Under the pieces are notes generated by a model. It saw only the letters and a program-made list of their open reading frames with translations, did no database searches and was not told the DNA's origin. A DNA stretch of 64,000 bases from Anaeromyxobacter paludicola. GTDB taxonomy: Bacteria > Myxococcota > Myxococcia > Myxococcales > Anaeromyxobacteraceae. Both the position numbers and the translations under genes were made by a program. The stretch spans positions 3,968,001 to 4,032,000 of the forward strand of contig NZ_AP025592.1 in the NCBI RefSeq assembly GCF_023169965.1, read 5' to 3'. Below are positions 10,340-31,981 of the stretch, piece by piece (the first letter of the stretch is position 1; every line of letters begins with the position of its first letter).

Positions 10340-10388
10340 GTCGAGCGATCAGGGCGGCGCGGCGCCGTCCGCTTCGAGGAGAACGCAC

Positions 10389-12126: not shown

Positions 12127-12169
12127 CGCGGGGATCCCTCCGGCGCCCGCCGGACCGGGCGGACGCGTC

Positions 12170-13360: not shown

Positions 13361-13391
13361 GTCGTGCCTCGGATCCTGCAAGTTCGCTCCG

Positions 13392-14933
13392 CTACTCGCG
13401 GTCGGCGGTGCGGCCGCCGGACTGGCGCCGCTGGAGCAGCTTCACGCCGGCGCCCATGAGCTTGGTGCGCAGGCGGCGGCGCTGCTGCCAGAGGGTGGTC
13501 GGCAGCTCCGCCAGCTTCTTCACGTCCTCGGGGCCGGCGTTGAGGGCGCGCCAGGTCATGATCTCGACCACGTCGCCGAGCCGCTCCGACAGCGGGCGGT
13601 CCGACTGCTGGAGCACCTCGCCCACGCCGAGGCTGCCCTTCACCGGGCTGCGCTCCACCGAGATGGCGGTGATGCCGTCCTCGGCCGACGAGTAGAACCC
13701 GTTGCAGCCGGGGCGGGCCATCTTCACCTCCACCCGCGTGGAGGGCTTCTTGTAGGGGATGACCCCCATCTCGCGGCCGCAGCGCTGGAAGATGTCGAGC
13801 GAGCGGTCCACCTGCTCGTCGGTGTGGGTCGCGGTGAAGACGGTCCGGACCAGCTCCTTCTCGACCGCCGGCCTCACCACCGGCGAGGCGAACATGCCGG
13901 CGTCGGTGAGCCTCCGCCAGAAGGAGAGGCAGAGGGTCTGGTCGCCGATCACGATCGGGAGCACCGGGGTGACCGACGGCGCGGTGTCGAAGCCCATCCC
14001 GCGCAGCTCGCGGTGGAGCCGCTCGGAGATGTCCCAGAGCCGCGCGCGGCGCTCCGGCTCCTGCTCGATGATCTCGAGGCTCTTGAGCGCGGCGGCGGCG
14101 GCGCCCGGCGTCATCGAGGCCGAGAAGACGAGCGGCCGCGACTTGTGCTTGAGCCAGTTGATGACCTCCTTCGGGCCGGCGATGCAGCCGCCGATGGAGG
14201 CGAGCGACTTCGAGAAGGTGAGCATCTGGAGGTCCACCTCGTCGTGCAGCCCGAAGTGCTCCCCCGTGCCGCGTCCGCCCTCGCCGAGGACGCCGAAGCC
14301 GTGGGCGTCGTCCACGAAGAGCCGCGCGTTGTACTTCTTCTTCAGCTCGACGATCTTCGGCAGGTTCGCGAGGTCGCCCTCCATCGAGTACATGCCGTCG
14401 ACGACGATGAGCTTGCCGGAGTCCGGATCGGCGCTGGCGAGCAGCCGCTCCAGGTCGTCCATGTTGTTGTGGCGGAAGCGCTTGCAGTCGCCGAGCGCCG
14501 CCTGGATGCCCTCGACGAGCGAGGCGTGCACCATGCGGTCGGCGAAGATGGTGTCCTTGCGCAGGATGAGCGACGAGAGGACGCCGACGTTGGTGCCGAA
14601 GCCGGTCGAGTAGGTGACCGCGGCCTCGCGGCCGAGGTACTTCGCGAGCCGGTGGTCGAGCTCGTCGTGCAGCTCGGTGGTGCCGTTGAGCACGCGCGAG
14701 CCGCAGGTGGAGGCGCCCCACCGGCGCGAGGCCTCGGCGGCGGCCTCCTTGACCCGGGGGTCGTTGGCGAGCCCGAGGTAGTTGTTGGAGCAGGCCATGA
14801 TGACCCGCTTGCCGTCGATCACCACCTCGGTGCCGTCGGTCTCCTGGATGACCCGGTAGTACGCGTAGTGGCCCGCGAGCTTGGCGAGGTCGGCGTCCTT
14901 CCAGTTGACGCACTTCTCGAAGATGTCTGCCAT
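13392..14933 (-). CDS. spt: Serine palmitoyltransferase (alpha-oxoamine synthase family)
   Basis: This 513-residue PLP enzyme should condense L-serine with a fatty acyl thioester to give 3-ketosphinganine, the first step of sphingolipid synthesis. Visible catalytic positions are the stacking His in ADRMVHASLV (His136), DDAH (Asp208, His211) and the Schiff-base lysine in TFSKSLASIGG (Lys242). The motif YSTGFGTNVG near 108-117 is typical of the family. It is about 110 residues longer than usual alpha-oxoamine synthases because of a basic C-terminal tail. KBL and BioF share the fold, but the neighbouring bCerS and CerR genes favour Spt. No dedicated acyl carrier protein gene is present nearby, unlike in Caulobacter. 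Confidence 0.85.
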   Translation of the reverse strand: MADIFEKCVNWKDADLAKLAGHYAYYRVIQETDGTEVVIDGKRVIMACSNNYLGLANDPRVKEAAAEASRRWGASTCGSRVLNGTTELHDELDHRLAKYLGREAAVTYSTGFGTNVGVLSSLILRKDTIFADRMVHASLVEGIQAALGDCKRFRHNNMDDLERLLASADPDSGKLIVVDGMYSMEGDLANLPKIVELKKKYNARLFVDDAHGFGVLGEGGRGTGEHFGLHDEVDLQMLTFSKSLASIGGCIAGPKEVINWLKHKSRPLVFSASMTPGAAAAALKSLEIIEQEPERRARLWDISERLHRELRGMGFDTAPSVTPVLPIVIGDQTLCLSFWRRLTDAGMFASPVVRPAVEKELVRTVFTATHTDEQVDRSLDIFQRCGREMGVIPYKKPSTRVEVKMARPGCNGFYSSAEDGITAISVERSPVKGSLGVGEVLQQSDRPLSERLGDVVEIMTWRALNAGPEDVKKLAELPTTLWQQRRRLRTKLMGAGVKLLQRRQSGGRTADRE

Positions 14934-17553: not shown

Positions 17554-18665
17554 CTGCCGCTCCGGACCGCCTCGTCCGGCGGGACGCCGAGCGGGAGCTC
17601 GCGGCAGCCCTGCGCGGCGGACTGGTACGCGGTGGTGATGATCTCGATGCACCGGTAGGCGTCCTGCGCCTCCTTGCCGGCGTAGTCGCCGCGGTCGATG
17701 GCGGCCCGGAACTGGTCGAACATGGCGTTGAACCAGCGGGTGTGGCTCGCGTCCATCCAGTCGGAGGCGATGGTCCGCTTCTCGAACTCCCAGGTGACGT
17801 TGCCCTGCGCCACGTCCTCGCCGCCGGTCCGCTTCATCACCGCGATCTCGAGGTCGTCGTCGGACACGGTGATCGCGCCCTGGTCGCCCTGCACCGAGTA
17901 CTGGACCTTGCGGACGCCCGCCGTCCAGGTGAGGTGGGCGTGCGCGAGGCCGTTCGGGAAGGTGAGCACGACCGAGAAGTTGTCCTCGGTGTCGTACTTC
18001 TGCGGCTCGAGGTTCGACATCTTGGCGGTGACCGCGGTCGGCCAGGCCCCCATCCAGTCGAACGTCAGGTAGAAGCTGTGGCTGCCGTGGTCCATGGCGA
18101 TGCCGCCGCCGGAGTAGCGGACCTGGCGGCGCCAGTGGGTGTTCCACTCGGTGACGCCCTTGGCGTGGGTGTTGCGGTAGGTGCCGAGGGTCACCGAGCG
18201 CACCTTGCCGATCTTCCCGCTGGCGATGATCTCGCGGATGGCCTGCACCACCGGCGCGTGCTTGTAGTTGTGGGCCGGGAAGAGCACGCGGCGGGCGCGC
18301 TTCGCGGTCTCGAGCAGCGAGGCGGCGTCGGCGAGCGTGGTGGTGAGCGGCTTCTCGCAGAGCACGTGGAGCCCGAGCTCGAGCCCGGCGCGCGCGATGG
18401 CGGCGTGGTCGCAGGGCGGGGTGGCGACGTCCAGGAAGTCGAGCTCCCGCTCGGCCGCGAGGAGCGCCTCGTGGCTCTCGTAGACCCGGGCGCGCGGCAG
18501 CTGCTCGGCCACCTTCTCGCGGCGAGCCGGGCAGACGTCGGCCACGGCCACGATCTCGACGTCCTCCCGCTTCGCGTAGGCGGGCACGTGCCCCTTGGCC
18601 CCGATGAAGCCGAAGCCGACCAGGGCGCCGCGGAGGCGCCGACCCGAGCTCGTCCTTCCCGTCAT
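17550..18665 (-). CDS. Gfo/Idh/MocA-family oxidoreductase
   Basis: This 371-residue protein has the NAD(P)-binding GFGFIG loop (residues 17-22), the conserved CEKPLTT segment (Glu104-Lys105-Pro106) and an alpha/beta C-terminal domain with GGGIAMDHGSHSFYL, as in glucose-fructose oxidoreductase and inositol 2-dehydrogenase. It should oxidise or reduce a sugar, cyclitol or related polyol. A strong AAGGAG site lies eight bases before the ATG. It sits between a class III aminotransferase and the MMPL exporter in the lipid operon. A dehydrogenase plus aminotransferase pair could make an amino-sugar or amino-cyclitol head group, but this is a guess from adjacency. Confidence 0.82.
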   Translation of the reverse strand: MTGRTSSGRRLRGALVGFGFIGAKGHVPAYAKREDVEIVAVADVCPARREKVAEQLPRARVYESHEALLAAERELDFLDVATPPCDHAAIARAGLELGLHVLCEKPLTTTLADAASLLETAKRARRVLFPAHNYKHAPVVQAIREIIASGKIGKVRSVTLGTYRNTHAKGVTEWNTHWRRQVRYSGGGIAMDHGSHSFYLTFDWMGAWPTAVTAKMSNLEPQKYDTEDNFSVVLTFPNGLAHAHLTWTAGVRKVQYSVQGDQGAITVSDDDLEIAVMKRTGGEDVAQGNVTWEFEKRTIASDWMDASHTRWFNAMFDQFRAAIDRGDYAGKEAQDAYRCIEIITTAYQSAAQGCRELPLGVPPDEAVRSGR

Positions 18666-18712: not shown

Positions 18713-20053
18713 CTAGCGCCAGGCGCCGCTCCGGTTCAGTTCGGCGAAGACCTCGTCGAGGACCGCCAGCCCCTCGAGCGCCGTCTCGGCGTCGATGGTG
18801 AGCGCCGGCTGCAGCCGCAGGTGGGGGGAGTAGCTCATCGCGAGCAGCCCCTTCTTCACGCAGTCCCGGTAGACCTGCTGCATCACCTTGCCGTCCACCG
18901 GCTCGCGGGTCTTCCGGTCCTTCACCAGCTCCACGCCGAGGAAGAGCCCGGCGCCGTCCACCTTGCCGATGAACGGGTGGCGCTCCTGCATGCGCCGGAG
19001 CTCGGCGAGGATCGCCGCGCCCACGCGCTCGGCGTTCTCCCAGAGCTTCTCCTCGCGGATCACCGAGACCGAGGCGAGCGCGGCCGCGGCGGCCAGCGCG
19101 TTCCCGCCGTAGCTCGAGGAGGCGCCGGAGGGGTTCGACCAGGGCTTCGCCCTGGAGATGGCGTCGGTGGTGAGCACGCCCGCCACCGGGAAGCCGGAGC
19201 CGAAGCCCTTGCCGAGGGTGACGATGTCCGGGCGGGCGCCGCTGTGCGACACGCCCCACGGCTTCCCGGTGCGGCCGAAGCCGCAGATCATCTCGTCGGC
19301 GATGAAGAGCGCGCCCACCTCGTGCGCCGCGTCCGCCACCGCGGCCACGAACTCCGGCGGCGGGACGACGTTGCCGGCGGTGCCCTGCATCGGCTCCATG
19401 ATCACCGCGGCGACCGGGCCGGCCGGCTGGGCCTTGATCGCCTTGCGGGCGAAGTCGGCGCAGGCGAGGTCGCAGCTCGCCCGCTCCAGGCGGAACGGGC
19501 AGCGGTAGCAGTCGGCGTAGGGGATCTGGGTGGCGTGCGCCGGGAGGGGGCCGAGCCCGTCGCGGGCCGGGGTGCCGAGCAGCGCCGCCGCGCCGGCGGT
19601 CTTGCCGTGGAAGCCGCCCCAGAACGAGACCACCTCGGAGCGGCCGGTGTGATGCCGCGCCAGCCGGAGGGCCGACTCGACCGCCTCGGCGCCGCCCGAG
19701 TAGAGCTGCAGCCGGTCGAGGCCGGCCGGGGCCATGGCGCAGACCTCGTTCACGAGCTTCGCCCGCGGCTCGGAGGTGAAGCTGCCGACCGTGAGCGTCT
19801 CGGCCTGGCGCTGCAGGGCCGCCACGTAACGCGGGTGGCAGTGGCCGAGCGCGTTCACGCCGATGCCGCCGATGAGGTCCACGTAGACGTTCCCGTCCAC
19901 GTCGGTGAGGGTCGAGCCCTGGCCCTTCGCCATGGCGACCCCGGCCCAGAGCGCGAAGCCCTGGAGCCCCGGGGAGAGGTGCTGCTGCTCGAGGGCGACG
20001 ACCTCCTTCGAGCGGGGGCCGGGGATCTCGGTGCGGAGCTGGATCTTCTTCAT
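18713..20053 (-). CDS. Class III (GABA/ornithine-type) aminotransferase
   Basis: This 446-residue PLP enzyme has LYSGGAEAVESALRLARHHT in the phosphate-binding region, IADEMICGFGRTG with the cofactor Asp (Asp253), and the Schiff-base lysine in TLGKGFGSGFP (Lys282). A cluster of four cysteines (182, 185, 194, 198; DCYRCPF...SCDLAC) occurs in a subset of the family and could bind a metal. The class normally moves an omega-amino group of an amino acid or amine. The ATG at 20053 overlaps the stop of the GtrA-like gene (ATGA), so it belongs to the same operon as the lipid genes. Its substrate is unknown. Confidence 0.82.
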   Translation of the reverse strand: MKKIQLRTEIPGPRSKEVVALEQQHLSPGLQGFALWAGVAMAKGQGSTLTDVDGNVYVDLIGGIGVNALGHCHPRYVAALQRQAETLTVGSFTSEPRAKLVNEVCAMAPAGLDRLQLYSGGAEAVESALRLARHHTGRSEVVSFWGGFHGKTAGAAALLGTPARDGLGPLPAHATQIPYADCYRCPFRLERASCDLACADFARKAIKAQPAGPVAAVIMEPMQGTAGNVVPPPEFVAAVADAAHEVGALFIADEMICGFGRTGKPWGVSHSGARPDIVTLGKGFGSGFPVAGVLTTDAISRAKPWSNPSGASSSYGGNALAAAAALASVSVIREEKLWENAERVGAAILAELRRMQERHPFIGKVDGAGLFLGVELVKDRKTREPVDGKVMQQVYRDCVKKGLLAMSYSPHLRLQPALTIDAETALEGLAVLDEVFAELNRSGAWR

Positions 20054-20496
20054 GTCGAGGCGTGCCCTGTGGAGCGGGAGAAGACGAAGTGGCGGTGCAG
20101 CGGGTAGTTCCAGACGAAGCCGACGATCAGCGAGGCCAGGATCACGCCCGGCACGGGCGAGCCGGCCGGGCGGACGCCGGCGAGGTCCACGATGGCCCAG
20201 GCGAGCAGCACGTTCCAGCCCGCCGAGGCGGCCGACACCGCCGCGTAGCGGAGCGCCTGGGCGTGGATGAGGCCGTGGCCGGCGCCGAACACCCACCACT
20301 TCTTCACGGAGAAGTCGGTGACGGCCCCGGCGAGGGCGCCCACGCAGGCGGCCACGAGGTAGTGCACGTGGAGGGCGACGAGGGAGGTCATGAGCGCCCA
20401 GTCCACGAAGGTGGCGAGGGCGGACGAAGCCTGCGCCCGGGCGATCCGGCCGGCCTCCGCCGCCCAGCCCTCCGCCTGCGGCGTGAGGGAGCTCAT
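20050..20496 (-). CDS. GtrA-like membrane protein
   Basis: This 148-residue protein has four hydrophobic segments with the GtrA family pattern: ASSALATFVDWALMTSLVAL in the first helix and TDFSVKKWWVFG before the third, ending with FVWNYPLHRHFVFSR. GtrA proteins are thought to flip or help translocate polyprenyl-phosphate sugars. The gene overlaps its upstream neighbour (the CDP-alcohol phosphotransferase) and its downstream neighbour (the aminotransferase) by ATGA at both ends. With the GT2 and GT39 enzymes of this region it suggests sugar transfer outside the cytoplasm. Confidence 0.78.
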   Translation of the reverse strand: MSSLTPQAEGWAAEAGRIARAQASSALATFVDWALMTSLVALHVHYLVAACVGALAGAVTDFSVKKWWVFGAGHGLIHAQALRYAAVSAASAGWNVLLAWAIVDLAGVRPAGSPVPGVILASLIVGFVWNYPLHRHFVFSRSTGHAST

Positions 20497-21281
20497 CGCT
20501 TGCGCAGCTCCGCGCGGATGTAGGCGGTGCGGCGGGCGCCGGTCCAGTTCGCGAAGATGGCGATGAGCGCGAGGGCGCCCAGCACGAGCAGGTGCCGCGG
20601 GCGGCCGGCGGACGGCCAGACCACCTCGGCGATGGAGGAGAGGATGGTGGCGGTGATGAGGTAGGCGGCGCGCTCGTGGCGCTGCATCGTCCCCATCTTG
20701 GCGTCGATCCCGAAGCCCTCGCCCTTGGCGCGGGTGTAGCTCACGAGCACCGCGCCGGCGCAGGCCGCGCAGGCGATGGAGAAGGCCATCGGGTCGTCGC
20801 GGTAGTAGTAGGCGTAGCCGAAGAAGGTGGCGATCTCGGCCCAGCGGTCGATCACGGCGTCGAGCGTCTCGCCCGCGTCGGAGGCGAGGCCGCGGGCGCG
20901 CGCCACCGAGCCGTCGAGCGAGTCGCACGCGGAGCCGACGAGCAGCAGCCAGCCGCCCAGCCCGAACGCGCCCTGCCCGATCAGGGCCGCGGCGGCGATG
21001 GTCAGGACGAGCGAGGTCCAGGAGAGCGTGTCGGGGTGCAGCCCCAGGCGGACCGCGAATCGGGCGAAGGGGGCAAATACCCAGAGCCCCCACTCCATGA
21101 AGAACTCGCCGAGCAGGAACGTCCCACCGGTCTGGGCGACCCGCGCCGAGTGGGGCCGCCCGTGGATGGCGCTCTTCAGGCCGAAGGCGAGGAGCGTCGC
21201 GAACAGCGCGCCGGTCAAGCCGACCAGCGGCAGCCAGGTGGTGGCGGGGGAATTGACCCAGACCAGGAGCTCGTCCTTCAC
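20493..21281 (-). CDS. CDP-alcohol phosphatidyltransferase family protein
   Basis: This 262-residue membrane protein carries the full CDP-alcohol phosphotransferase signature D-x2-DG-x2-AR-x8-G-x3-D-x3-D at residues 120-145 (DSLDGSVARARG, then G137, D141 and D145). It moves a phosphoalcohol from or to a CDP-activated lipid or alcohol, as in phosphatidylinositol-phosphate, phosphatidylglycerol-phosphate or archaetidylinositol synthases. About 80 residues precede the catalytic segment, more than in PgsA. GTG at 21281 follows TTTAAGGGCGCGC, a usable ribosome site, and is taken as the start. It is the first gene of the minus-strand lipid operon. In this setting it may make the donor phospholipid for the head group; the substrate is not determined. 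Confidence 0.82.
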   Translation of the reverse strand: MKDELLVWVNSPATTWLPLVGLTGALFATLLAFGLKSAIHGRPHSARVAQTGGTFLLGEFFMEWGLWVFAPFARFAVRLGLHPDTLSWTSLVLTIAAAALIGQGAFGLGGWLLLVGSACDSLDGSVARARGLASDAGETLDAVIDRWAEIATFFGYAYYYRDDPMAFSIACAACAGAVLVSYTRAKGEGFGIDAKMGTMQRHERAAYLITATILSSIAEVVWPSAGRPRHLLVLGALALIAIFANWTGARRTAYIRAELRKR

Positions 21282-21350: not shown

Positions 21351-22706
21351 GTGCGCGTGCTCCTCACCCTGTCCCTCTCCCTCCTGCTCGGCGCCGCGCC
21401 GGTCTGCGGGCCCGTCGATCTCGACGGCGCGCTCGCCCTCGCCGCGCGCAACGGGGACGAGGTCGCCATCCGGCGGGCGGAGCTGCGCGCCGCGGAGGCC
21501 GACCAGTCGATCGCCCGGGCCGCCCGCATCCTCCCGAGCGCCTCCCTCACCTTCCTCGGCGGGCCGGTGCCCGAGGCCAAGGGGACCATCCTCCACCCCG
21601 AGACCTCCACCAACCGCACGCTCGATGGGCTGGGACCGTTCGTCCGGTTCGAGCTGCAGGTCGTCCAGCCGCTCTACACCTGGGGGCGGCTCGACGCGGC
21701 GCGCGACGCCGCCGACGCCGGGGTCCGGGCGCGCGAGCTGCTCGTCACCGACAAGGTGGCCGAGCTGCAGCAGCGGGTGGTGCAGCTCTACTGGGGTGAG
21801 GCGGCCGCGAGGAAGCTCCTCGCCATCGGCGACGACGTGGAGAAGAACCTCTCCCAGGTGGAGAAGCAGCTCGCCGACGCGCTCGAGGCCGGGGACGCCT
21901 CGGTGAAGCAGGCCGACCGGTACCGGCTCGACCTCTACAAGGCGCAGCTCCGCAAGCGGCGCGCCGAGGCCTCCCGGGGCCTGGCCCTCGCGCACGACGG
22001 CCTCGCCGCCACGGCCGCCATGCTGCCGGAGGAGCTGGTCCTCAAGGACGCGCCCCTCCCGCTCGACCCCGGCCCCGCGCCGACGATGGAGGAGGCGCGC
22101 GCGGCGGCGGTGCAGCACCGGCCCGACCTCCTCGCGCTCGAGCAGGGGCTCCTCGCCAAGGACGCCGAGCTCGACGCCGCCTACGGCGCCATGAAGCCGC
22201 AGCTCTTCCTCGGGGGGAGCTTCACCTTCGCCTACGCGCCGAACCGCTCGCCGCAGTTCAACCCCTGGGCCTACGACCCCTTCAACACCGTCGGCGGCGG
22301 CGTCGCCCTCGGCGTCAAGCAGGACCTCGCCTTCCCGCTCCTCACCGCGCAGGCGCGCAAGGTCCGCGCCGAGCGCGAGACGCTGCGCCGCCAGCGCGAG
22401 GGGCTCATGCGCCTCGTCACCGTGCAGGTGGAGTCGGCGGTGGCCGACGTCGTCCAGGCGAGGGAGCGGCTCTCCGCCGCCCGCGCCGCGCTCAGCTCGG
22501 GCAAGAGCTGGTTCCGCTCGGCCGGCCTCGACTTCGAGGCCGGGGTGGCGGAGCCGAAGGAGCTGCTCGACGCCTACGCCGGCTATGTCGAGACGCAGGT
22601 GGAGCAGGTCCAGGCGGCTTACGATCTCCTCGTGGCCCGGGCCAAGCTCGACCAGGTCGCCGGCGTCTCACCCAGGAAAGGAACCGATCCATGTCCCTCG
22701 CGCTAG
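21351..22706 (+). CDS. TolC-like outer-membrane efflux channel
   Basis: This 451-residue protein begins with a signal peptide (RVLLTLSLSLLLGAAPVCG) and then shows the paired OEP repeats of TolC-like channels. These are long alpha-helical hairpins with VDLDGALALAARNGDEVAIR and AAAVQHRPDLLALEQGLLAK, separated by beta segments (FVRFELQVVQPLYTWGRLDA; GVALGVKQDLAFPL). It should form a trimeric outer-membrane channel. It is divergent from the lipid operon and overlaps the MlaC-like gene by 16 nt. No adaptor (HlyD-type) gene is present here. A role with the MMPL exporter in lipid or glycolipid export is inferred. Confidence 0.85.
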   Translation: MRVLLTLSLSLLLGAAPVCGPVDLDGALALAARNGDEVAIRRAELRAAEADQSIARAARILPSASLTFLGGPVPEAKGTILHPETSTNRTLDGLGPFVRFELQVVQPLYTWGRLDAARDAADAGVRARELLVTDKVAELQQRVVQLYWGEAAARKLLAIGDDVEKNLSQVEKQLADALEAGDASVKQADRYRLDLYKAQLRKRRAEASRGLALAHDGLAATAAMLPEELVLKDAPLPLDPGPAPTMEEARAAAVQHRPDLLALEQGLLAKDAELDAAYGAMKPQLFLGGSFTFAYAPNRSPQFNPWAYDPFNTVGGGVALGVKQDLAFPLLTAQARKVRAERETLRRQREGLMRLVTVQVESAVADVVQARERLSAARAALSSGKSWFRSAGLDFEAGVAEPKELLDAYAGYVETQVEQVQAAYDLLVARAKLDQVAGVSPRKGTDPCPSR

Positions 22707-23290
22707 CGCTCCTCCTCGCCGTCGCCGCCGCGCCGGGCTCCGCCACCGAGGCGCTCCAGGCCCGCGCGGCCGAGGTGCGCGCCGAGCTCCCGCCCAAGGG
22801 CGAGGCGATCACGCCGGCCGTGCGCGCGAAGCTGGAGAAGCTCCTGACCCGCACCGTGGACCTGCGCGCCATGGCGAAGGCGGCGCTCGGGCACAACTGG
22901 GACAAGATGACGGAGAGCCAGCGCAAGCGGCTCATCGGCGCCTTCGAGAAGCGCTTCCGCAGCGCCACCACCGGCGACGTGGAGGGCTACCGCTCCACCG
23001 AGATCGCCTACAAGCCGGAGGAGAAGGCGGGCGAGGACGTGGTGAAGGTGCCCACCGAGATGACCATCCAGGGCGAGCCGACCGAGATCAGCTACGCCAT
23101 GCGCAAGGGGTCCGAGGGCTGGCGCATCGAGGACATCGTGGTGGACGGCGTCTCCACGGTCGCGAACTACCGCTCGTCCTTCGCGCGCATCATCAACAAG
23201 GACGGCGTCGAGGCGCTCATCTCCAAGCTGGAGAAGGGGCCGCAGAAGGGCGGCAGCGGCGGCGCCGGCGGCGCCAAGGCGAGCCGGTAG
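22691..23290 (+). CDS. MlaC/Ttg2D-family periplasmic lipid carrier
   Basis: This 199-residue protein has a signal peptide (MSLALALLLAVAAAPGSATE) and the MlaC/Ttg2 fold sequence: VDLRAMAKAALGHNWDKMTE, KRLIGAFEKRFRS, then the beta-rich part ending GWRIEDIVVDGVSTVANYRS. MlaC proteins carry phospholipids across the periplasm, and HpnM of hopanoid clusters belongs to the same family. No other mla genes (mlaABDEF) are nearby, so this one probably serves a different lipid. AGGAAAGGAACCGATCC precedes the ATG, giving a strong ribosome site. It overlaps the TolC-like gene. Confidence 0.88.
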   Translation: MSLALALLLAVAAAPGSATEALQARAAEVRAELPPKGEAITPAVRAKLEKLLTRTVDLRAMAKAALGHNWDKMTESQRKRLIGAFEKRFRSATTGDVEGYRSTEIAYKPEEKAGEDVVKVPTEMTIQGEPTEISYAMRKGSEGWRIEDIVVDGVSTVANYRSSFARIINKDGVEALISKLEKGPQKGGSGGAGGAKASR

Positions 23291-23345: not shown

Positions 23346-25058
23346 GTGAACGAAGCCGGCCTCCCCGTCCCCGCGCCGAGCCCGCGCGCCGAGAAGCTCG
23401 TCGTCGCGCTCGCCTGCGTCCTCTTCCTCGCGCTCGCGGGCGCCGAGGCGTGGCGCAACAGCTACCCGTACTTCGACGACGTCGGGTACCTCGAGATGGG
23501 CCACCAGATCCGGGCCCTCGGCGGCCCGCTGGGGCTCCTGCGCGAGCTCTACGCCGGGCACCGCTACACCGAGTCGAACCGCCACCCGCTCTTCCTCGCC
23601 CTCCTGTCGCTCGTCGCGCGCCCCGACCTCGGCTACCACCGCGACGCGCAGCTGCTGACGCTCGCCCTCGGCGTCGTCGCGCTCCTCTCCTGCTGGCAGG
23701 TGATCCGCCGCCACTTCGGGAAGGGGCCGGCGCTGGTCGCCGTCCTGCTGCTGGCCTGCGGCCGCACCTTCGTGAACGTGGCGTCGCGCGAGTGGTGCGA
23801 GCCCCTGCTCGTCGCGCTCTGGGCCCAGGCCGTCGGCGCCGTGCTCGACGGCCTGCGGCGGCCCGGGCGGCCCTGGCCCTGGCTCGCGGGCGGCGTCTTC
23901 TCCGGGCTCGCGTTCCTCACCAAGGGCACGGCGATCTTCCTGCCGGTCTGCGTGGCCCTGGCGCTCCTCGTGGAGCAGCGGTGGCGCGCCCTCGTCCACC
24001 GCGGCGCCTGGCTCTTCGGCGGCGCCTTCCTCGTCACCGCCTCGCCGCTCCTCTGCCGGAACGTGCGGCTCTTCCACACGCCGCTCTACCAGTTCAACTC
24101 GCGGCTCGTCTGGATCGACAAGCTCCCCGACTTCGCCGAGGTCTTCGCCCCGCACGCCTACGACAAGCTGCCGGACGGCTTCCTCGCCTGGGTGGCCCAG
24201 GTGACGCCCAGGGCGCTCGCCTGGCGCGTCGTGGGCGGGGTGGGGGAGGTGAGCTTCAACCTCCTCGACGCCTTCGCCCTGGTGGCGCCCACGCCCGGCG
24301 GCCCGGTCCACGTCGCGCTCATCGTGGCCGCCCTGGCGGCGCTCGTGATCTCGCTGCGCTGGCTCTGGCGCATGCCCCGCGGCCCGGCGCGGACGTTCCT
24401 CCTCGTCCACTGCGCCTGGAGCTACGCCTTCTTCGTCGCCTTCAGCGCCAGCGGCGCCAACTCGCGCTACTTCCTCCCGCTCGTCGCGACCACGCTCGTC
24501 CCCGCCTTCGCCTCGCGCCTCTGGGAGGCGCTGCAGGCCCCCGCGCCCCGCCCGCTGGTCCGCCGCACCGCCCTCTGCGCCGCCGGGGCCGTCGCCGCCA
24601 CCGCGCTGCTCCACGCCCCCGCCATGACGCCGCCCCCGGGCATGGCCGCCGTCGAGGACTGGCTCGTGGCCCACGTCCGCCCCGGCGAGACCTACGCCGT
24701 GGACGCCCGCACCCACCTGCAGGCGAGCTGGCTCCTCCCCGGCGCCGAGCAGCTCATCGTCTCCGCGAGCTGGGACGAGAAGCCGGTGCCCGCGCAGGAG
24801 CTCCTCGACTGGCTCCGCGATCACCGCGTCCGCTACGTGGTGCTCGACGGCTCCGCGCTCGCCCACATGGGCTCGCCGGCCGACCCCGCCGCGCGCCGCT
24901 ACCTGTTCTACGACCTGCTCCCGCTCGGGCCCGACGGCTCGCTCCCGCTGGAGGGGTTCCCCGGCGACCTCGCGCTCGCCTACGCCGCCCCCGATAGCCC
25001 GCGCCAGTGGCTCATCCTCGAGACCCCCTGGGCCGAGGCGCGGGTGGCGAGGCGGTAG
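23346..25058 (+). CDS. GT39/ArnT-like integral membrane glycosyltransferase
   Basis: This 570-residue protein has an N-terminal helix followed by a periplasmic loop with the acidic pair YFDDVGYLEMG (Asp44-Asp45), as in PMT/ArnT-type (GT-C fold) enzymes. A NRHPLFLALLSL segment follows and then about ten more membrane helices. A soluble C-terminal domain starts near residue 430. Such enzymes use polyprenyl-phosphate sugars and act on the outer face of the inner membrane. It follows the MlaC-like gene by 55 nt on the same strand. The acceptor is unknown; a glycolipid is plausible given the neighbours. TAGTCT lies 6 nt before the GTG start, so a short leader is possible. Confidence 0.75.
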   Translation: MNEAGLPVPAPSPRAEKLVVALACVLFLALAGAEAWRNSYPYFDDVGYLEMGHQIRALGGPLGLLRELYAGHRYTESNRHPLFLALLSLVARPDLGYHRDAQLLTLALGVVALLSCWQVIRRHFGKGPALVAVLLLACGRTFVNVASREWCEPLLVALWAQAVGAVLDGLRRPGRPWPWLAGGVFSGLAFLTKGTAIFLPVCVALALLVEQRWRALVHRGAWLFGGAFLVTASPLLCRNVRLFHTPLYQFNSRLVWIDKLPDFAEVFAPHAYDKLPDGFLAWVAQVTPRALAWRVVGGVGEVSFNLLDAFALVAPTPGGPVHVALIVAALAALVISLRWLWRMPRGPARTFLLVHCAWSYAFFVAFSASGANSRYFLPLVATTLVPAFASRLWEALQAPAPRPLVRRTALCAAGAVAATALLHAPAMTPPPGMAAVEDWLVAHVRPGETYAVDARTHLQASWLLPGAEQLIVSASWDEKPVPAQELLDWLRDHRVRYVVLDGSALAHMGSPADPAARRYLFYDLLPLGPDGSLPLEGFPGDLALAYAAPDSPRQWLILETPWAEARVARR

Positions 25059-25363: not shown

Positions 25364-26577
25364 TCAGGTCGGGCCGAACGCGAAAGATGAGGTGGTGAAC
25401 GCCGTCCCCGGGGACGGCGCCTTGGCAACGCGGCGGCGCTCGCGCGCTTGCCGGGCCTCGGCGACGCGTCGGGCGACGTGCTCGCGGCCGAACTCGTGCT
25501 CGGTCGCGAGCCCATGGTGGGCGGCACAGCGCAGGCAGATGTTGTCGGCCGTCGCCTCCCCGCCCTTCGCGAAGGCGACCCGCTGGTGGTGGAACTCGAG
25601 CCTGCGGCGAGCCGGGCAGCGCCGTCCGTCCTCAGCGACGAAGGTGCACTGGTTGCCGTCGCGAAGGGCCACCTCGCGCCGCACGTGGTTGGGGATGTGC
25701 CGCGAGCCCTCGGTCGCCGGGGCGGACCTGGGTGCGCGCGGCGTTCGGGTCTCGGCGAACTTTCGCTTGCGAAGCTCGCGGACCAGGAGCTCGAGCGCCC
25801 GGTCGACGACCTCGGCGAGGTCTCCGGTCGGCAACTGATGGCCGAGCAGGTCGCTGGCCTCCTCCAGCCGGTCGCGGGTCTGGCGAGAGATGGTGAGCTG
25901 GAGCTTGTAGCGCTCGGGCGCGAGCGGGGCGAGCACGGGTCGCGGCGGCGGGGGAGGAGGCGCCACTATCGCCGTGGGGGCGAGCGCAGCGCGCGGCGGT
26001 GGCGGCACCGCGACCGGCGTGGGAGCGGGCGCGAGCGCGCGGGGGCAGCGAGGAGCGAAGGCGCTTCCGGCGGAGCGACCAGCGACGACGCTTCGGGCTG
26101 CGCCGACGGCGCGAAGCGCGGCGGTGGGCTCGGGAGCTTGCGCAGGGCCTCGGGGACGTCCGGCCTGGGGAATCGCTCGGCGAGGAGCTGCTCGACGTCG
26201 CGCTTGCTGCGATGGACCGCGGCGTCCAGGAGCGCGCCGTGGTTCTCCTCGGTGAGGTGCTGCGCGAGGAGGCATACGGCGGAGAGGTGGAGCCTGCCAT
26301 CGGCGAGCATCTCCAGGATGACGGGGAAGCGGCGCGCCGCGCGGGCGGCGTTGATGCGCTTGTAGGCGGCCTCGTCGGAGAGGTGGAGCACGTTCACGCA
26401 GTAGGCGTGCATCGAGGGGCAGGCGTGGTCGCGGTAGAGCCTGCGGGCATCGACCTCCGCGAGGTGCGCCACGAAGTCGGCGGTGGCCTCGCGCTCGCGG
26501 CGGACGAGGAAAGTGAGGGCATCGAGCAGCGCGCGGTCGGACAGCGCGGCCGGGTCGGAGGAGAGCGGAGCGTTCAT
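25364..26577 (-). pseudogene. HNH endonuclease (DUF222-like), frameshifted
   Basis: Two overlapping frames together give a complete protein of about 400 residues. The first (ATG at 26577 to a stop at 25966) holds a conserved helical domain, with DALTFLVRREREATADFVAH, DARRLYRDHACPSMHAYCVN and GRLHLSAVCLLAQHLTEENH. The second frame resumes in the Pro/Ala linker with RALAPAPTPVAVPPPP. It then holds ERYKLQLTISRQTRDRLEEA and the HNH nuclease end with GRRCPARRRLEFHHQRVAFA, ADNICLRCAAHH. The frames switch at a C5 run near 26041-26045 (minus strand GCTGCCCCCGCG), consistent with loss of one C, a -1 slip during translation, or a base-calling error. The nuclease domain itself looks intact. Confidence 0.75.
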
Positions 26578-26867
26578 ACGCTCCGTTTTATCAGCGGTTT
26601 TCGAGCCCTCCGGGAAGGGGTCTGGTCGGCCCGTGGCCGGGATTTCCCGGAGCAGCCTCCGCGCTCCCTCGGAGACGGCGAGCGCACCGCGCAGGGCGCG
26701 CCGGACGCGTCGGGAGGGGCAGGCCCAGCGCGCGGGACCGTCGCGAGGCGCGAAGGCCCAGGGTCGTGTCAAGCGAAGACGCGGTCCGGATTGGGTGCAT
26801 GGGTAACGAAACGGACCGGCAGCAATGGTGGCACGCTGCGCGGAGCTGCTGGCACGAGCCGTCCCTC
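26578..26867. other. Upstream region of the HNH gene inside the element
   Basis: This stretch before the HNH start has no convincing gene. A TGATAAAACGGAGCG sequence on the minus strand just before the ATG could serve as a -10 region and ribosome site. Nothing else is recognised. Confidence 0.35.
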
Positions 26868-27067
26868 CTCGCGGGCGCGGCCTCGTTGCACCGGCCCCCG
26901 CGTTCGCGCGCACAGACTCCGTCCGGCGAGGCGGCGGCGCCGCCGCCGAGATCGACGGGATCGCTCGCGCGTGCCCCCTCCGCTCGCGTCAGGGCCCGAA
27001 GAAGGTCCGGGGTGGACGCGCGAGCGCCGTTCTGCCGAGGGAAGCTCGTTGACTGACTGACATTGCG
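26868..27067 (-). repeat. Right inverted repeat (about 200 bp) of the HNH element
   Basis: This is the partner of 25074-25273 in opposite orientation. It ends 2 nt before the stop codon of the GT2 gene at 27069. Small differences and short indels between the two copies show they have diverged. Confidence 0.75.
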
Positions 27068-27068
27068 G

Positions 27069-28040
27069 CTACGCCGCCGCGCCGCCCCGCCGCGCCCCGT
27101 GCCCCGCCGCCCGCTCCGGCGCCCGCCACCGGAGGTACTGGAGCCGCTTCAGCTCCCGCCGCCCCCGCGTGACCGTGTCGAGGACGAGCCCGCACGCGAG
27201 CGAGAGCGAGGCCAGGATCACGAGCCCCGTGGAGAGGAGCGCGGTCGGCATCCGCGGCACGAGGCCGGTCTCCAGGTACGTCGGCACGAGCGGCGCCGCG
27301 AGCGCCAGCGCGAGGGTGGTCAGGAGCGCGCTCGCGACCGAGAAGAAGAGGAGCGGCCGCTCCTCCCGCGCCAGCGCCAGGATGGTGCGGAGGATCCGGA
27401 CCCCGTCGCGCCAGGTGTTGAGCTTGCTCGCCGAGCCGGCCGGCCGCTCCCGGTAGGCCGTGTCCACCTCGGCCACCGGCATGCGCAGCTCGAGGGCGTG
27501 GACCGTGAGCTCGGTCTCGATCTCGAACCCCGCCGAGAGGGCCGGGAAGGACTTCACGAACCGGCGCGAGAAGACCCGGTAGCCGGAGAGGATGTCGCGG
27601 AAGCGGTTCCCGAAGATGCGGGCCACGAGCCCGGTGAGCAGCGCGTTGCCGAAGCGGTGCCCCGGCCGGTAGGCGGCGACCGCGTCGGTCACCCGCGCCG
27701 CGCAGACCATGTCGAGCTGCTCGTCCTCGAGCTTCGCGACCAGTCTCGGCGCCGCCGCGGCGTCGTAGGTGTCGTCGCCGTCCACGAGGACGTACACCTC
27801 CGCCTCCACGTCGGCGAACATCCGCCGGACCACGTTGCCCTTGCCGCGCAGCGGCTCGGTGCGGACCACCGCGCCCGCCGCCCGGGCTCGCTCCACCGTC
27901 CGGTCCGTCGAGCCGTTGTCGTAGACGTAGACCGGCGCGCCCGGCAGGGCGGCGCGGAAGCCGCGCACCACCGCCTCGATGGCCGCCTCCTCGTTGAGGC
28001 ACGGCACGAGGATCGCGACCGGGTGGAGTGTCTCGGACAT
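27069..28040 (-). CDS. GT2 glycosyltransferase (DPMS/GtrB-like)
   Basis: This 323-residue protein has a GT-A domain with ILVPCLNEEAAIEAVVRGFR at the start, DNGSTD and the metal-binding DGDDTYD motif near residue 95. Two hydrophobic segments follow near the C-terminus (about 225-250 and 262-285), then a basic tail. This layout is typical of enzymes that load a sugar onto a polyprenyl phosphate at the inner face of the membrane. It is the third gene of a minus-strand set with the lipid kinase and the Aur1-like gene, 43 nt after the latter. It could make the donor for the GT39-like enzyme, with the GtrA-like protein as flippase; this is inference. Confidence 0.85.
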   Translation of the reverse strand: MSETLHPVAILVPCLNEEAAIEAVVRGFRAALPGAPVYVYDNGSTDRTVERARAAGAVVRTEPLRGKGNVVRRMFADVEAEVYVLVDGDDTYDAAAAPRLVAKLEDEQLDMVCAARVTDAVAAYRPGHRFGNALLTGLVARIFGNRFRDILSGYRVFSRRFVKSFPALSAGFEIETELTVHALELRMPVAEVDTAYRERPAGSASKLNTWRDGVRILRTILALAREERPLLFFSVASALLTTLALALAAPLVPTYLETGLVPRMPTALLSTGLVILASLSLACGLVLDTVTRGRRELKRLQYLRWRAPERAAGHGARRGGAAA

Positions 28041-28083
28041 GGCGCGCGCAGCCTAGCAGAGGCCGAGCGGGAAAGGGCCCGGG

Positions 28084-29079
28084 CTACTCGGCGTCGGCCG
28101 GCTCCATCGCGGCCGGAGCGGCCGCCGCGGCGGGCTGGCGGGCGAGCGCCCGCTCGATCCCCACCCCCACGAGCGTGTAGGTGACGCCCAGGAGCACGTC
28201 GAGCATGTAGTGGTGCTGCAGGTAGACGGCCGAGAAGCAGACGAGGAGGAAGAAGCCGAAGCTGACCACGTCGAGCCAGCGCTTGCCGAGCTGGCGGCCG
28301 TAGAGGAACACGAAGAGCGGATAGGAGACGTGGAGCGAGGGGATGGCCCCGAACACGTCGGCGCTCCGGCCGTAGAAGGCGGCGAAGTAGTGGAGGCCGG
28401 TCATCGCGTCCCAGCGGGCCGCCGCCGCCGCCGAGGCCTGCGCCGCCATGTTGGCGGGGCCGAGGCCGTACTGCGTCACGTACCAGGGCGGGGCCGACGG
28501 GTAGATGTAGTAGGTCGCGAACCCGGCCACGTTCACCGCGAGGAAGGTCCAGCCGAAGCGGCGCGCCAGCCGCTGGATCCGGTCGTCCTTCCGCTTCGCG
28601 AGCAGCAGCCAGGCCGCGAAGCCGAGCGACCAGTAAAGGTAGAGGATGTAGGCGGACCCGGTCACGAGGTCGACCGCCGGCCAGTGGAACCGGGCGAAGA
28701 GCTCGTTGGGCGTGAGCCGGACGCCGTCCACCGGGACGCCGAAGAAGAGCTTGTCGAAGTGGTACGGCTCCGCCACGTGCACGTGCAGGTAGCGCACCAG
28801 CGGCTCGGTGAGGTGGGTGAGGTCGTAGATGATCCCGAACAGCAGGAACGGCAGCATCCCCGCGAAGAAGCGGCGCGTGCCGGCGCTCCAGACCGCGAGC
28901 AGGAACATCAGGGCGCAGAGCAGGAACTGCTCCGGCCGGTTGCCCAGCGTGAGCCCCATCACCAGGAGGTAGGCCCCCATCCCGGCGAGCGAGCCGTAGA
29001 GGTAGGAGCGCGGGGTGGCGGCGATCCGTCCGGCGAGGCCGGGGCGGGGGGCGGGGGCGGGCGAGGAGGTCGTTTCCAT
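28084..29079 (-). CDS. Aur1-like PAP2-family phosphotransferase (candidate inositol-phosphoceramide synthase)
   Basis: This 331-residue polytopic membrane protein of the PAP2_3 (inositolphosphotransferase Aur1/Ipt1) family has six to eight hydrophobic segments and the two hallmark motifs. One is AIPSLHVSYP with His250, and the other is QHHYMLDVLLG with His290 and Asp294. The spacing agrees with the His...His-x3-Asp triad of fungal Aur1. Aur1 transfers phosphoinositol from phosphatidylinositol to ceramide and releases diacylglycerol. The gene lies 59 nt downstream of a lipid-kinase gene and about 7 kb from the ceramide operon, which makes a sphingolipid head-group role attractive. Other bacterial PAP2_3 proteins have no known function, so the substrate is not proven. 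Confidence 0.75.
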   Translation of the reverse strand: METTSSPAPAPRPGLAGRIAATPRSYLYGSLAGMGAYLLVMGLTLGNRPEQFLLCALMFLLAVWSAGTRRFFAGMLPFLLFGIIYDLTHLTEPLVRYLHVHVAEPYHFDKLFFGVPVDGVRLTPNELFARFHWPAVDLVTGSAYILYLYWSLGFAAWLLLAKRKDDRIQRLARRFGWTFLAVNVAGFATYYIYPSAPPWYVTQYGLGPANMAAQASAAAAARWDAMTGLHYFAAFYGRSADVFGAIPSLHVSYPLFVFLYGRQLGKRWLDVVSFGFFLLVCFSAVYLQHHYMLDVLLGVTYTLVGVGIERALARQPAAAAAPAAMEPADAE

Positions 29080-29138
29080 GGCGCGGCGAGCGCTCGTACC
29101 GGCTCGCGGCGCCCCCGTCAAGGGTGGGCCGGCGGGCG

Positions 29139-30083
29139 CTACGGTAGGAGGATGCGCACCGGCGGCCCGGTGGTGATCCGCACCGACCCGTCGGAGTCGT
29201 AGAGATCGCCGTCGAGCGTGAAGCGGAACGGCTCCGGCGCCTCGATGGCGAGGTCGCGCGTGACCGCGTCCATCGCCACCCGCCGCCGCCAGGGCCGGCC
29301 CAGCCGGATCGCCGGGAGCGCCGCCGCGAGGGTGAGGGCGCTCGAGGTGACCCCCACCGCGTGGAAGAAGCCGGGCTGCTCGTCGCAGCGGGCGAACGGC
29401 TTGAACCCGAGCCCGATGTCCGGCTCCGACCCGGCGAGCACCGCGAGGTAGCGCAGGGAGGGCCAGTCGTCGCCGTCGGCGACGACGCGCGCCGGCTCGC
29501 GGCGGGTGAGGTCGGCGGCGAAGCGGCCCCGCACGAGGGCCGAGCCGACCGCCCGGGCCGCGAGCGCCGCCGCGCGAAGCGGCGTCGTCCGGCCGCGCGC
29601 GTAGTAGGTCTCCAGGAAGCGGACCACCGCGCCGGTCCCGAAGAGGAAGCCGTACTGCGGCGGGCGGCCGCCCCACTCGACCTGAAGCAGGTCGCGCTCG
29701 ACCTGCCGCAGCGGGCGCCGCTCGCGCCGCCCCTCGACCCAGCGCCGCAGGATCGACTCCGGCGTGCCCTTGAGCCCGTGGCCGTGCGCGACCGTGTTCA
29801 TCGAGCCGCCGCGCAGGATGAGCAGCGCCGGGAGCGGCGCGCCGGCCCAGGCCGTCACCGCCGCGGTGAGCACCACGTGGGCGGTGCCGTCCCCGCCGTT
29901 CACGCCCAGGACCTCGACCCCCGCGCCGCGGAACTCCCCGAGCGCGCGCGCGAGCTCCTCGAGGTTGCTGGCGTCGGCCACGAGCCCCTCGCCGTCCACG
30001 AGGCTCGCGAGGCGGCGCGGCGTGTCGGGGTGGCGGCGGTTGTGCCGGGAGCCCGGGTTGTTGACGATGCCGATGACCGCCAT
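29139..30083 (-). CDS. Diacylglycerol/sphingoid/ceramide kinase-like protein
   Basis: This 314-residue cytoplasmic protein has the DAGK catalytic motifs NPGSRHNRRHP (nucleotide region), GGDGT (63-67) and the RGGSMNTVAHG segment (91-101), with a C-terminal beta domain including FTLDGDLYDS. Members phosphorylate diacylglycerol, sphingosine or ceramide. It is the first gene of the set with the Aur1-like and GT2 genes. If the Aur1-like enzyme makes diacylglycerol as by-product, this kinase could return it to phosphatidate. Alternatively it may phosphorylate ceramide, as CpgB does in Caulobacter. It is divergent from the DUF4388/J-domain gene, 77 nt away. Confidence 0.82.
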   Translation of the reverse strand: MAVIGIVNNPGSRHNRRHPDTPRRLASLVDGEGLVADASNLEELARALGEFRGAGVEVLGVNGGDGTAHVVLTAAVTAWAGAPLPALLILRGGSMNTVAHGHGLKGTPESILRRWVEGRRERRPLRQVERDLLQVEWGGRPPQYGFLFGTGAVVRFLETYYARGRTTPLRAAALAARAVGSALVRGRFAADLTRREPARVVADGDDWPSLRYLAVLAGSEPDIGLGFKPFARCDEQPGFFHAVGVTSSALTLAAALPAIRLGRPWRRRVAMDAVTRDLAIEAPEPFRFTLDGDLYDSDGSVRITTGPPVRILLP

Positions 30084-30145
30084 GCTCCCCCTCGCCGGCC
30101 GGCCCCTCGGCCGCCCGGGAAGATCTACCGCACCCGGAGTTGCGG

Positions 30146-30151
30146 TACACT
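30146..30151 (+). promoter_or_regulatory. Candidate -10 box 9 nt before the DUF4388/J-domain gene
   Basis: TACACT ends 9 nt before the GTG at 30161 with no Shine-Dalgarno sequence in between. A short or absent leader is suggested, as at several other starts in the window. Confidence 0.3.
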
Positions 30152-30160
30152 CGCCGTCGC

Positions 30161-31981
30161 GTGGGGCTCCTGGAAAAGACGGGTGATCTGTCGGCGGTGC
30201 CGCTGGCGGCGGTGCTGCTCGACGCCTTCAACGCCCGCGCCACCGGCACGCTGCTGTTCGACGCGGGCGGGGGCGCCTCGCGCCTCTACCTCCGCGCCGG
30301 GGTCCCGGTCGGCGCCCAGAGCTACGCCGGGTTCCGGCCGCTCGGGCAGGAGCTGCTCGCGGCGCGGCTCATCGACCTGCCGGCCTTCGAGAAGAGCCTC
30401 GTGGAGATGTCGCGCACCGGCCGCAAGCAGGGCGACCTCCTCGTGGAGATGGGGGCGGTGAGCCGCGAGGCGGTGGACGCCGCCCTCTCGCGGCAGCAGT
30501 CGGGCTACCTCGCGCAGGTGGCGCGGCTCGCCGAGGGGACCTTCCGCTTCGAGCCCGGCGAGCCGCCCGAGTGGACCCGCGGGGTGCGCACCAGCCCGCT
30601 CCGGGCGGTGGTGGACGCGTTGACCGCGCCCCAGGCGGCGTCCCTCGTCGAGGCGGCCTTCGCCCAGGCGGGGCCCCAGGTCGCCTTCCGGGCCGGCTAC
30701 GCCGCCGTGGCCCGCGCCTTCGGCTGGACCGCCGAGGAGACCACCCTCGTGGCCCGGCTCGCCTCGCCGGTGGAGCCCTCCCGCTTCGTGGCGGGCGGCG
30801 ACCTCCCGCCGGAGCGGGCGAGGGCGGTGCTCGCCGCGCTCGTGCTGCTGGGGCTGGCCGGCGGCGACGAGGCCCGGGCCGCGCCTCCCATCGAGCTGCC
30901 CGAGGTCATCGAGATCACGGGTGAGGTGGAGATCCCGGACGCCACCGAGGAGGCCTTCGCGCCCGAGGCGGCGCCGGCCGCGCCGCCGCGTCCCGCGCCG
31001 GTGGCCGCCCCGGCCCGCCCGCGCCCGCCGGACGAGGCGGCCGAGGAGTCACGTCGGCGCCGCGCCCGGCTGCTCGCGCGCGCCCTCGAGAACATGGGCG
31101 CGCGCCCGCCGCCCGGAGCCCCGGCGCCCGCGCGCCACGGCCCGCCCCCGCCGCCCGGGGCCCCGGCGCCCGCGCCCCACGGCCCGCCCGCGCCGCCGCG
31201 GCGGGAGGCCCGGGTCTCCCCGCCCGCGTTCCCTGCCGGCCGGGACGCCGGCGCGAGCGACCAGTTCCGCGCCGCCGACCCGGCCAGCCGGGCCAGCTTC
31301 GCCGCCACCGGCGAGGAGCGGCAGCTCCGGCTCGACTTCGAGCTCGCCGAGTCGCGCGCCGCGAGCGCCGATCTCTTCGTCCGGCTCGGGCTCGAGCCGG
31401 CCGCGACCGTGGACGGCGCCCGCCGCGCCTTCCTCGACCTGGCGCGCCGGTTCCACCCCGACCTCTTCGCCACCCCCGGCGTCCGCCAGCTCGCGCCGCG
31501 CGTCTCCGCCTTCTTCGGCGCCGTGAACGAGGCCTACCAGGTGCTGGCCGATCCCGGCCGGCGCGCCGAGTACCTGGCCCGCACCTCGGCCGGGCGGCCG
31601 CCGGACCCGTACGCGCTCGTGGACTTCAAGAAGGGCGACGCCTGCGTGAAGACGCGGGACTGGGTGCGCGCCCGCGGCTTCCTCGAGTCGGCGGTGGCCG
31701 CCGACCCTCGCCCGGAGTACCAGGCGCTGCTCGCCTTCGCCTGCCTCATGGACCCGGCGCGGCCGGACCGCGCGCGCGCCGCGGAGCTCTCCGCCGCCGC
31801 CATGCACGACCCCTCCTGCGACCGGGCCTTCTACGTGGCGGCCCTGCTCGCGCGCGACGACGGCGACGAGCACGGGGCGGAGCGGCTCTTTCGCGGGGCC
31901 GTGGCGGCCAACCCCCGGCACCTCGAGGCCGCGCGGGAGCTGCGGCTCATCGCGCTGCGCCGGGGCCAGCGGCCGTCCTGA
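30161..31981 (+). CDS. DUF4388 (PATAN) protein with J-domain and TPR-like tail
   Basis: This 606-residue protein begins with a DUF4388 domain (LLEKTGDLSAVPLAAVLLDA and onward), found mainly in myxobacterial and related signalling proteins. A Pro/Ala-rich linker with a repeated PPGAPAPA(R/P)HGPP unit occupies about 270-370. A J-domain follows with the HPD motif in RFHPDLF near residue 430, so it may recruit an Hsp70. The end (about 490-600) is helical and TPR-like (KKGDACVKTRDWVRARGFLE; AAVAANPRHLEAARELR). The start is GTG at 30161. The combination suggests a chaperone-linked regulatory scaffold; no partner DnaK is in the window. The next gene also has a DUF4388 domain. Confidence 0.75.
   Translation: MGLLEKTGDLSAVPLAAVLLDAFNARATGTLLFDAGGGASRLYLRAGVPVGAQSYAGFRPLGQELLAARLIDLPAFEKSLVEMSRTGRKQGDLLVEMGAVSREAVDAALSRQQSGYLAQVARLAEGTFRFEPGEPPEWTRGVRTSPLRAVVDALTAPQAASLVEAAFAQAGPQVAFRAGYAAVARAFGWTAEETTLVARLASPVEPSRFVAGGDLPPERARAVLAALVLLGLAGGDEARAAPPIELPEVIEITGEVEIPDATEEAFAPEAAPAAPPRPAPVAAPARPRPPDEAAEESRRRRARLLARALENMGARPPPGAPAPARHGPPPPPGAPAPAPHGPPAPPRREARVSPPAFPAGRDAGASDQFRAADPASRASFAATGEERQLRLDFELAESRAASADLFVRLGLEPAATVDGARRAFLDLARRFHPDLFATPGVRQLAPRVSAFFGAVNEAYQVLADPGRRAEYLARTSAGRPPDPYALVDFKKGDACVKTRDWVRARGFLESAVAADPRPEYQALLAFACLMDPARPDRARAAELSAAAMHDPSCDRAFYVAALLARDDGDEHGAERLFRGAVAANPRHLEAARELRLIALRRGQRPS

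Follow-up and report, generated by a model that had tools for sequence, protein, structure and literature searches.

A gene in the 64,000-nucleotide stretch of the Anaeromyxobacter paludicola genome analysed here (hereafter the window) encodes a bacterial relative of Aur1, the inositol-phosphoceramide (IPC) synthase of fungi. This raises the question of what such an enzyme does in a myxobacterium. It could transfer phosphoinositol to ceramide, as proposed by an initial annotation of this DNA, it could move a different head group, or it could act as a lipid phosphatase of the wider PAP2 superfamily.

The Aur1-type protein and its predicted fold

An ATG at position 29079 opens a single frame of 331 residues on the minus strand (28084–29079), which encodes a PAP2_3-type membrane enzyme, predicted to be a phosphatidylinositol (PI):ceramide phosphoinositol transferase. 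The protein passes the family cut-off of PF14378 PAP2_3 with 62.7 bits (E = 5e-17; gathering score 27). A single-sequence phmmer search of the PDB recovered yeast Aur1 at E = 5e-11. With a profile of 76 relatives, the Aur1 match reached E = 7e-39, while the next family, of the PgpB type, followed at E = 3e-4. A promoter and terminator scan of positions 26900–30400 found nothing and is uninformative at such a GC content.

PAP2 chemistry relies on a His/Asp nucleophile, here His290/Asp294, and on a second histidine, here His250, for acid-base catalysis. In the HMMER alignment, His250, His290 and Asp294 of the window protein pair with His255, His294 and Asp298 of yeast Aur1, in agreement with the earlier observation that both Aur1 motifs are kept. 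The fungal spacing, which had also been claimed, is identical for the H-x3-D motif, but the distance between the two histidines agrees only to within one residue (40 residues in the window protein, 39 in yeast Aur1). All three catalytic residues are unchanged across the 76 relatives from several phyla, and the APPWY stretch is likewise invariant among them.

The AlphaFold (AF2) model of the window protein is confident across the membrane domain, with a mean pLDDT of 93.7. Structure prediction against Aur1, which had been suggested as a check, gave a near full-length match with a Z-score of about 24, far above those of the phosphatases. The model aligns with Aur1-Kei1 (9ivc) at Z 23.9 over 290 of its 331 residues and with Aur1-ceramide (9vj4) at Z 23.6 over 268 residues, and Foldseek agrees on Aur1 as the nearest fold. 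The predicted structure thus has the Aur1 fold beyond the PAP2 core. The likeness to fungal Aur1 (PDB 9ivc, 9vj3, 9vj4) comprises the full-length fold, the equivalents of the three catalytic residues and the APPWY region. However, the fungal protein is a eukaryotic Golgi enzyme that shares only about 20% identity with the window protein and has a His-His distance one residue shorter. Aureobasidin A sensitivity and a Kei1 partner are traits of the fungal enzymes, and a counterpart of Kei1 is not to be expected in bacteria.

The PAP2 core is common to several kinds of enzyme. LpxE was the next fold (Z 14.9 over 164 residues, catalytic core only) and PgpB gave Z 14.1; PAP2 phosphatases scored Z 15 or less, with the core alone aligning. 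A PgpB/LpxE-like phosphatase that acts on PI-phosphate (PIP) or another lipid phosphate, for instance as a missing PI-phosphate phosphatase, would account for this shared core. LpxE, PgpB and YodM also have the histidine pair, but they lack the N-terminal helices of the window protein, and only 164–184 residues align. The closest fold, the profile and the curated family model are all of Aur1/IPC synthase, and on fold and profile we rejected a plain PAP2 phosphatase as the best reading. Alternatively, the enzyme could move another phospho-head group to ceramide, taken from PE, PG or another phospholipid in the manner of sphingomyelin/CPE synthases. In keeping with this, the SMS-related structure 8ijq also aligns with the model (Z 13.1 over 209 residues), the N-terminal helices vary among relatives, and donor and acceptor are unreadable from the fold. 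The Aur1 match, however, lies far above the SMS-type match.

The sole NCBIfam model to match the window protein is 'phosphoinositol dihydroceramide synthase' (NF052609), which covers residues 34–314 and is also the sole NCBIfam match of all 76 relatives. The score of 195 bits for the full-length protein falls well short of the curated cut-off of 480 bits, which counts against the IPC reading. Judged by its sequence and predicted fold, the window protein belongs to the Aur1/IPC-synthase family and would work like BT_1522 of Bacteroides thetaiotaomicron, but by the cut-off rule it does not qualify as an NF052609 equivalog. In the tree it falls among those copies of its family that are linked to MIPS/PIPS (support 100/99).

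The same genome encodes a second Aur1-type paralogue of 45% identity at another location (C1:2322440-2323285, equivalent to 9941–10786 of locus L048). It retains the catalytic residues, adjoins an RND/MMPL-type exporter and a polyprenyl-synthase-like gene, and falls into a separate clade. Its presence speaks against a simple IPC reading of the window gene in so far as the two copies may share or split the work.

Inositol and ceramide genes around the Aur1-type gene

Ceramide genes had been reported nearby, and three candidates are indeed found on the minus strand at 11119–14933, about 13 kb from the Aur1-type gene. The first is a serine palmitoyltransferase-like alpha-oxoamine synthase (SPT, 13392–14933), named by synteny with inositol genes and by its best NCBIfam model, SerpalmtaseCFB (466 bits against a cut-off of 640). 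It is followed by a GNAT-type acyltransferase (12170–13381), a candidate bacterial ceramide synthase (bCerS) by weak PF00583/PF13480 matches and by synteny with SPT in three relatives (G022, G023 and G030) and in Bacteroidota loci. The third gene encodes an NAD-dependent SDR of the epimerase fold (11119–12126; PF01370, 140 bits), which is by synteny a candidate ceramide reductase (CerR).

The initial annotation had overlooked the inositol genes, yet it is these that make the case. On the minus strand at 20493–21230 lies a CDP-alcohol phosphatidyltransferase resembling PI-phosphate synthase (PIPS, BT_1523-like), whose start is inferred within a longer open frame. Its best NCBIfam matches are archaetidylinositol-P synthase (103 bits), PI-phosphate synthase (PIPSynth, 96 bits) and BT1523 (94 bits), and the PDB search returned CDP-DAG--inositol 3-phosphatidyltransferase at E = 4e-14, with other solved PI(P) synthases weaker. 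It is adjoined by a gene for a GtrA-like membrane protein (BT_1524-like; 20050–20493, minus strand; PF04138, 65 bits). The genome, a single contig of 4.59 Mb, also holds two MIPS genes outside the window. The Aur1-type gene is 6.9 kb from PIPS, and MIPS is not in the cluster, two points that weigh against an IPC synthase. The Aur1 match, the gene neighbours and the nearby ceramide-type genes are not due to chance.

Between the PIPS/GtrA pair and SPT, the minus strand encodes a class-III aminotransferase (18713–19990; PF00202, 311 bits), a Gfo/Idh/MocA oxidoreductase (17550–18665; PF01408, 90 bits) and, placed by synteny, an MMPL/RND lipid exporter-like protein (15031–17553; PF03176, 99 bits). 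On the plus strand, TolC-like and MlaC-like genes (21351–23290) accompany the PIPS/GtrA block in relatives as well; the MlaC-like protein matches PF05494 with 132 bits, and the TolC-like name comes only from its own sequence and this recurrence. The frames at 25364–26913, flanked by glycosyltransferase genes and separating the PIPS block from the Aur1-type gene, look HNH-endonuclease-like by eye and may represent an insertion that split an ancestral cluster.

In the nearest relatives (L040-L045), the Aur1-type gene lies with MIPS and/or PIPS, GtrA, SPT, bCerS and CerR within about 16–30 kb, and in G030 all seven genes fall inside 16 kb. Myxococcaceae-type genomes have a MIPS-Aur1-PIPS-GtrA tandem (L051), with gaps of about 110–146 bp between Aur1 and PIPS. 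A wider set of 80 loci from Myxococcota, Bdellovibrionota, Bacteroidota, Nitrospinota, Verrucomicrobiota and Spirochaetota has PIPS near the Aur1-type gene in 54, GtrA in 46 and MIPS in 35. This clustering with MIPS and PIPS across phyla argues against the transfer of a head group from PE or PG.

Two loci deserve separate mention. In L045, a fatty-acid-hydroxylase-family gene (14014–14628) lies between MIPS and SPT and is possibly a sphingolipid hydroxylase. The Actinomycetota-labelled contig of a Williamsia sp. MAG (L134) carries SPT, bCerS and PIPS together with an Aur1-type protein that groups within Bacteroidota, and has probably been mis-binned.

No PIP phosphatase could be pinned down in the window and no PgpA-type gene was seen in the cluster, a gap that a phosphatase role of the Aur1-type protein would fill. 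In two relatives, however, a HAD-family phosphatase gene adjoins PIPS/GtrA (G022 and G030; L040 8938–9612 and L045 10914–11588). From its sequence and position, this gene is a candidate for the PI-phosphate phosphatase, in place of the PgpA-type BT_1525, and it suits that role better than the Aur1-type gene does.

Co-occurrence among genomes and the proposed reaction

The strongest support for the IPC synthase reading is genomic. We scored 145 genomes of the order for the Aur1-type gene, MIPS, the neighbouring kinase, and homologues of the ceramide synthase and PIPS. All 75 genomes with both ceramide-synthase and PIPS homologues carry the Aur1-type gene, compared with one of 45 with ceramide only, one of 15 with PIPS only and none of 10 with neither. 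Across the same genomes the two homologues are independent of one another (p = 0.82). Among genomes at least 90% complete the corresponding figures are 70/70, 1/36, 0/9 and 0/5, and at the genus level 18 of 18 genera with both inputs have the gene, as does one of the remaining 28. The two exceptions are G090, a weak partial match, and G138, which has no ceramide-synthase match. These counts include related and hence non-independent genomes, were obtained with hand-set thresholds, and depend on a 'bCerS' assignment made from synteny and a weak match to GNAT models.

A gene confined to genomes with both ceramide and PIPS homologues is what is expected of an enzyme that uses PI and ceramide, and the pattern counts against both PE/PG use and a phosphatase role. 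The Aur1-type gene is missing in 44 of the 45 ceramide-only genomes, which presumably have PE and PG, and taken together with the synteny this makes the transfer of another phospho-head group quite improbable. Likewise, 14 of the 15 PIPS-only genomes lack the gene although they would need a PIP phosphatase, and we regard a phosphatase function as extremely improbable. Fold, catalytic residues, MIPS/PIPS synteny and the joint occurrence with both ceramide and inositol-lipid genes point the same way, and the inositol-phosphoceramide synthase put forward by the initial annotation is the best-supported reading: the gene very probably codes for the enzyme that transfers the head group in an inositol-phosphoceramide pathway, a predicted IPC synthase.

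Eight genomes of genus g2 from the family of the window genome (G013, G014, G016-G021) keep MIPS and a PIPS homologue but have neither the ceramide-synthase gene nor the Aur1-type gene, so that PI would be made there but inositol sphingolipids would not.

In the proposed pathway, MIPS, present in two copies in the genome, would convert glucose-6-phosphate into inositol phosphate, which the PIPS-like enzyme would join to CDP-diacylglycerol, and some phosphatase would then yield PI. Ceramide would be built by SPT, the GNAT acyltransferase and the SDR. The Aur1-type protein would transfer phosphoinositol from PI to the C1 hydroxyl of ceramide and release diacylglycerol (DAG). If the enzyme works as other members of the PAP2 superfamily do, Asp294 would polarise His290 for an attack on the phosphorus of PI, which would form a phosphoinositol-histidine intermediate, and His250 would protonate the departing diacylglycerol and then activate ceramide. 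The analysis itself shows the predicted fold, the catalytic residues, the gene neighbours and the phyletic distribution; from these we infer PI as the donor, ceramide as the acceptor, the release of DAG and the order of steps, along with a presumably periplasmic orientation of the active site.

The release of DAG draws attention to the gene directly upstream. As noted earlier, this is a DAGK-family lipid kinase on the same strand (29139–30083, minus strand; GGDGT motif; PF00781, 31 bits), separated by a 59-bp gap. The accompanying idea that transfer and DAG recycling are encoded together did not hold up as a conserved arrangement. Across the 145 genomes, the kinase orthologue occurs in 15 of 77 Aur1-positive and 11 of 68 Aur1-negative genomes (p = 0.67); among the latter are members of the same family that lack an Aur1-type gene altogether. 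The kinase lies beside the Aur1-type gene in its own genus only, and the one instance among the 80 wider loci is from that genus. We therefore rejected a conserved kinase-synthase unit for DAG recycling; the adjacency is a local arrangement and thus no evidence for a built-in recycling system. Even outside a conserved unit, the kinase may still use or recycle the DAG from the transfer.

Its assignment to a known kinase type, ceramide kinase or YegS, was rejected as well: the YegS matches in NCBIfam and PDB searches were weak (19–20 bits), and we give the kinase no specific name. The ceramide kinase CpgB (CC_1160) of Caulobacter is a lipid kinase related to DAGK and encoded in a sphingolipid locus, and for this reason we considered it as a possible counterpart of the window kinase, which itself shows no co-occurrence with the Aur1-type gene.

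Downstream of the Aur1-type gene, across a 43-bp gap, lies a GT2 glycosyltransferase gene (27069–28040, minus strand; AglJ model, 193 bits against a cut-off of 325), which we rejected as a member of the unit because it is next to the Aur1-type gene in its own genus only. The same restriction applies to a PMT_2-type glycosyltransferase gene at 23346–25058, and the two, which flank the region, might serve lipid glycosylation.

A possible aminated head group and comparison with known pathways

The aminotransferase and the oxidoreductase are a further point that may qualify the IPC synthase reading, as the transferred head group may be other than plain inositol. The aminotransferase is co-conserved with the inositol-sphingolipid module. 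Its orthologue occurs in 19 of the 145 genomes, all positive for both Aur1 and PIPS, and in each of them only a few kb separate it from PIPS and/or Aur1; in A. paludicola it adjoins GtrA/PIPS. Anaeromyxobacter oryzae, a cultivable relative that shares the cluster, has PIPS, the aminotransferase and the oxidoreductase together with an Aur1 copy of the paralogue type. None of the 68 Aur1-negative genomes of the order has it, and no further carriers were found among 195 genomes of the phylum (19/195), a set that consists mostly of the same 145. The oxidoreductase is found in 20 of the 145 genomes, namely the same 19 and one that is 61% complete. In Myxococcota the pair therefore occurs essentially only alongside the inositol-lipid module, and Bdellovibrionota loci have the same gene combination.

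The simplest chemistry, deduced from co-occurrence only, would be oxidation of an inositol hydroxyl by the Gfo/Idh protein and amination by the aminotransferase, so that the Aur1-type enzyme would build, or feed, an amino-inositol (inosamine) phosphoceramide. The joint presence of both genes in the same 19 Aur1- and PIPS-positive genomes, the closeness of the aminotransferase to PIPS and/or Aur1, its lack in Aur1-negative genomes and the recurrence of the set in Bdellovibrionota all point this way. On the other hand, the pair could make a lipid-decorating amino sugar or act on another substrate, and two families account for most of the 19 genomes, which are hence non-independent. We consider the amino-inositol head group possible but doubtful. 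It would extend the IPC reading and is not its opposite, and our confidence in the one overlaps with that in the other. A search of the open-access literature found no description of amino-inositol or inosamine sphingolipids.

The initial annotation stated that Aur1-type enzymes are not generally known to add the head groups of bacterial sphingolipids. This statement is out of date. BT_1522 of B. thetaiotaomicron was found by AUR1 homology, and its deletion abolishes phosphoinositol dihydroceramide (Heaver et al. 2022, PMC9246714). The BT1522-1526 operon is needed for IPC, which complementation restores (Sartorio et al. 2022, PMC8791184). With bacterial Aur1-type IPC synthesis published in 2022, the kind of enzyme in the window is already known. 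The paper of Heaver et al. (PMC9246714) further includes a citation for ceramide phosphoinositol in Myxococcus xanthus.

The window protein resembles BT_1522 in its family, with NF052609 as the only match, in the types of its neighbours (PIPS, GtrA and MIPS) and in its ceramide context, and the Myxococcaceae tandem reproduces the gene content of BT_1526/1522/1523/1524. Apart from the lower NF052609 score, the differences lie in the arrangement. Whereas the B. thetaiotaomicron genes form an operon, the window genome has PIPS and GtrA in the window and MIPS elsewhere; its cluster adds the aminotransferase, the oxidoreductase and the MMPL protein, has no visible PgpA-type gene, and has the kinase and GT2 as neighbours.

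Taken together, these results correct two expectations, namely that a bacterial Aur1 is new and that it is coupled to a DAG kinase. They widen the range of the IPC pathway, genetically proven in gut Bacteroidetes, to a large number of environmental bacteria and yield a genomic rule, by which an Aur1-type enzyme is present where both ceramide and PI are made. The aminotransferase/oxidoreductase pair, in turn, leads to a testable prediction, that of a so far undescribed sphingolipid head group. We tentatively suggest that Anaeromyxobacteraceae, related Myxococcota and Bdellovibrionota might use this dedicated pair to make a phosphosphingolipid that carries amino-inositol or is aminated in some other way; this lipid would be zwitterionic rather than anionic and perhaps exported by the MMPL protein.
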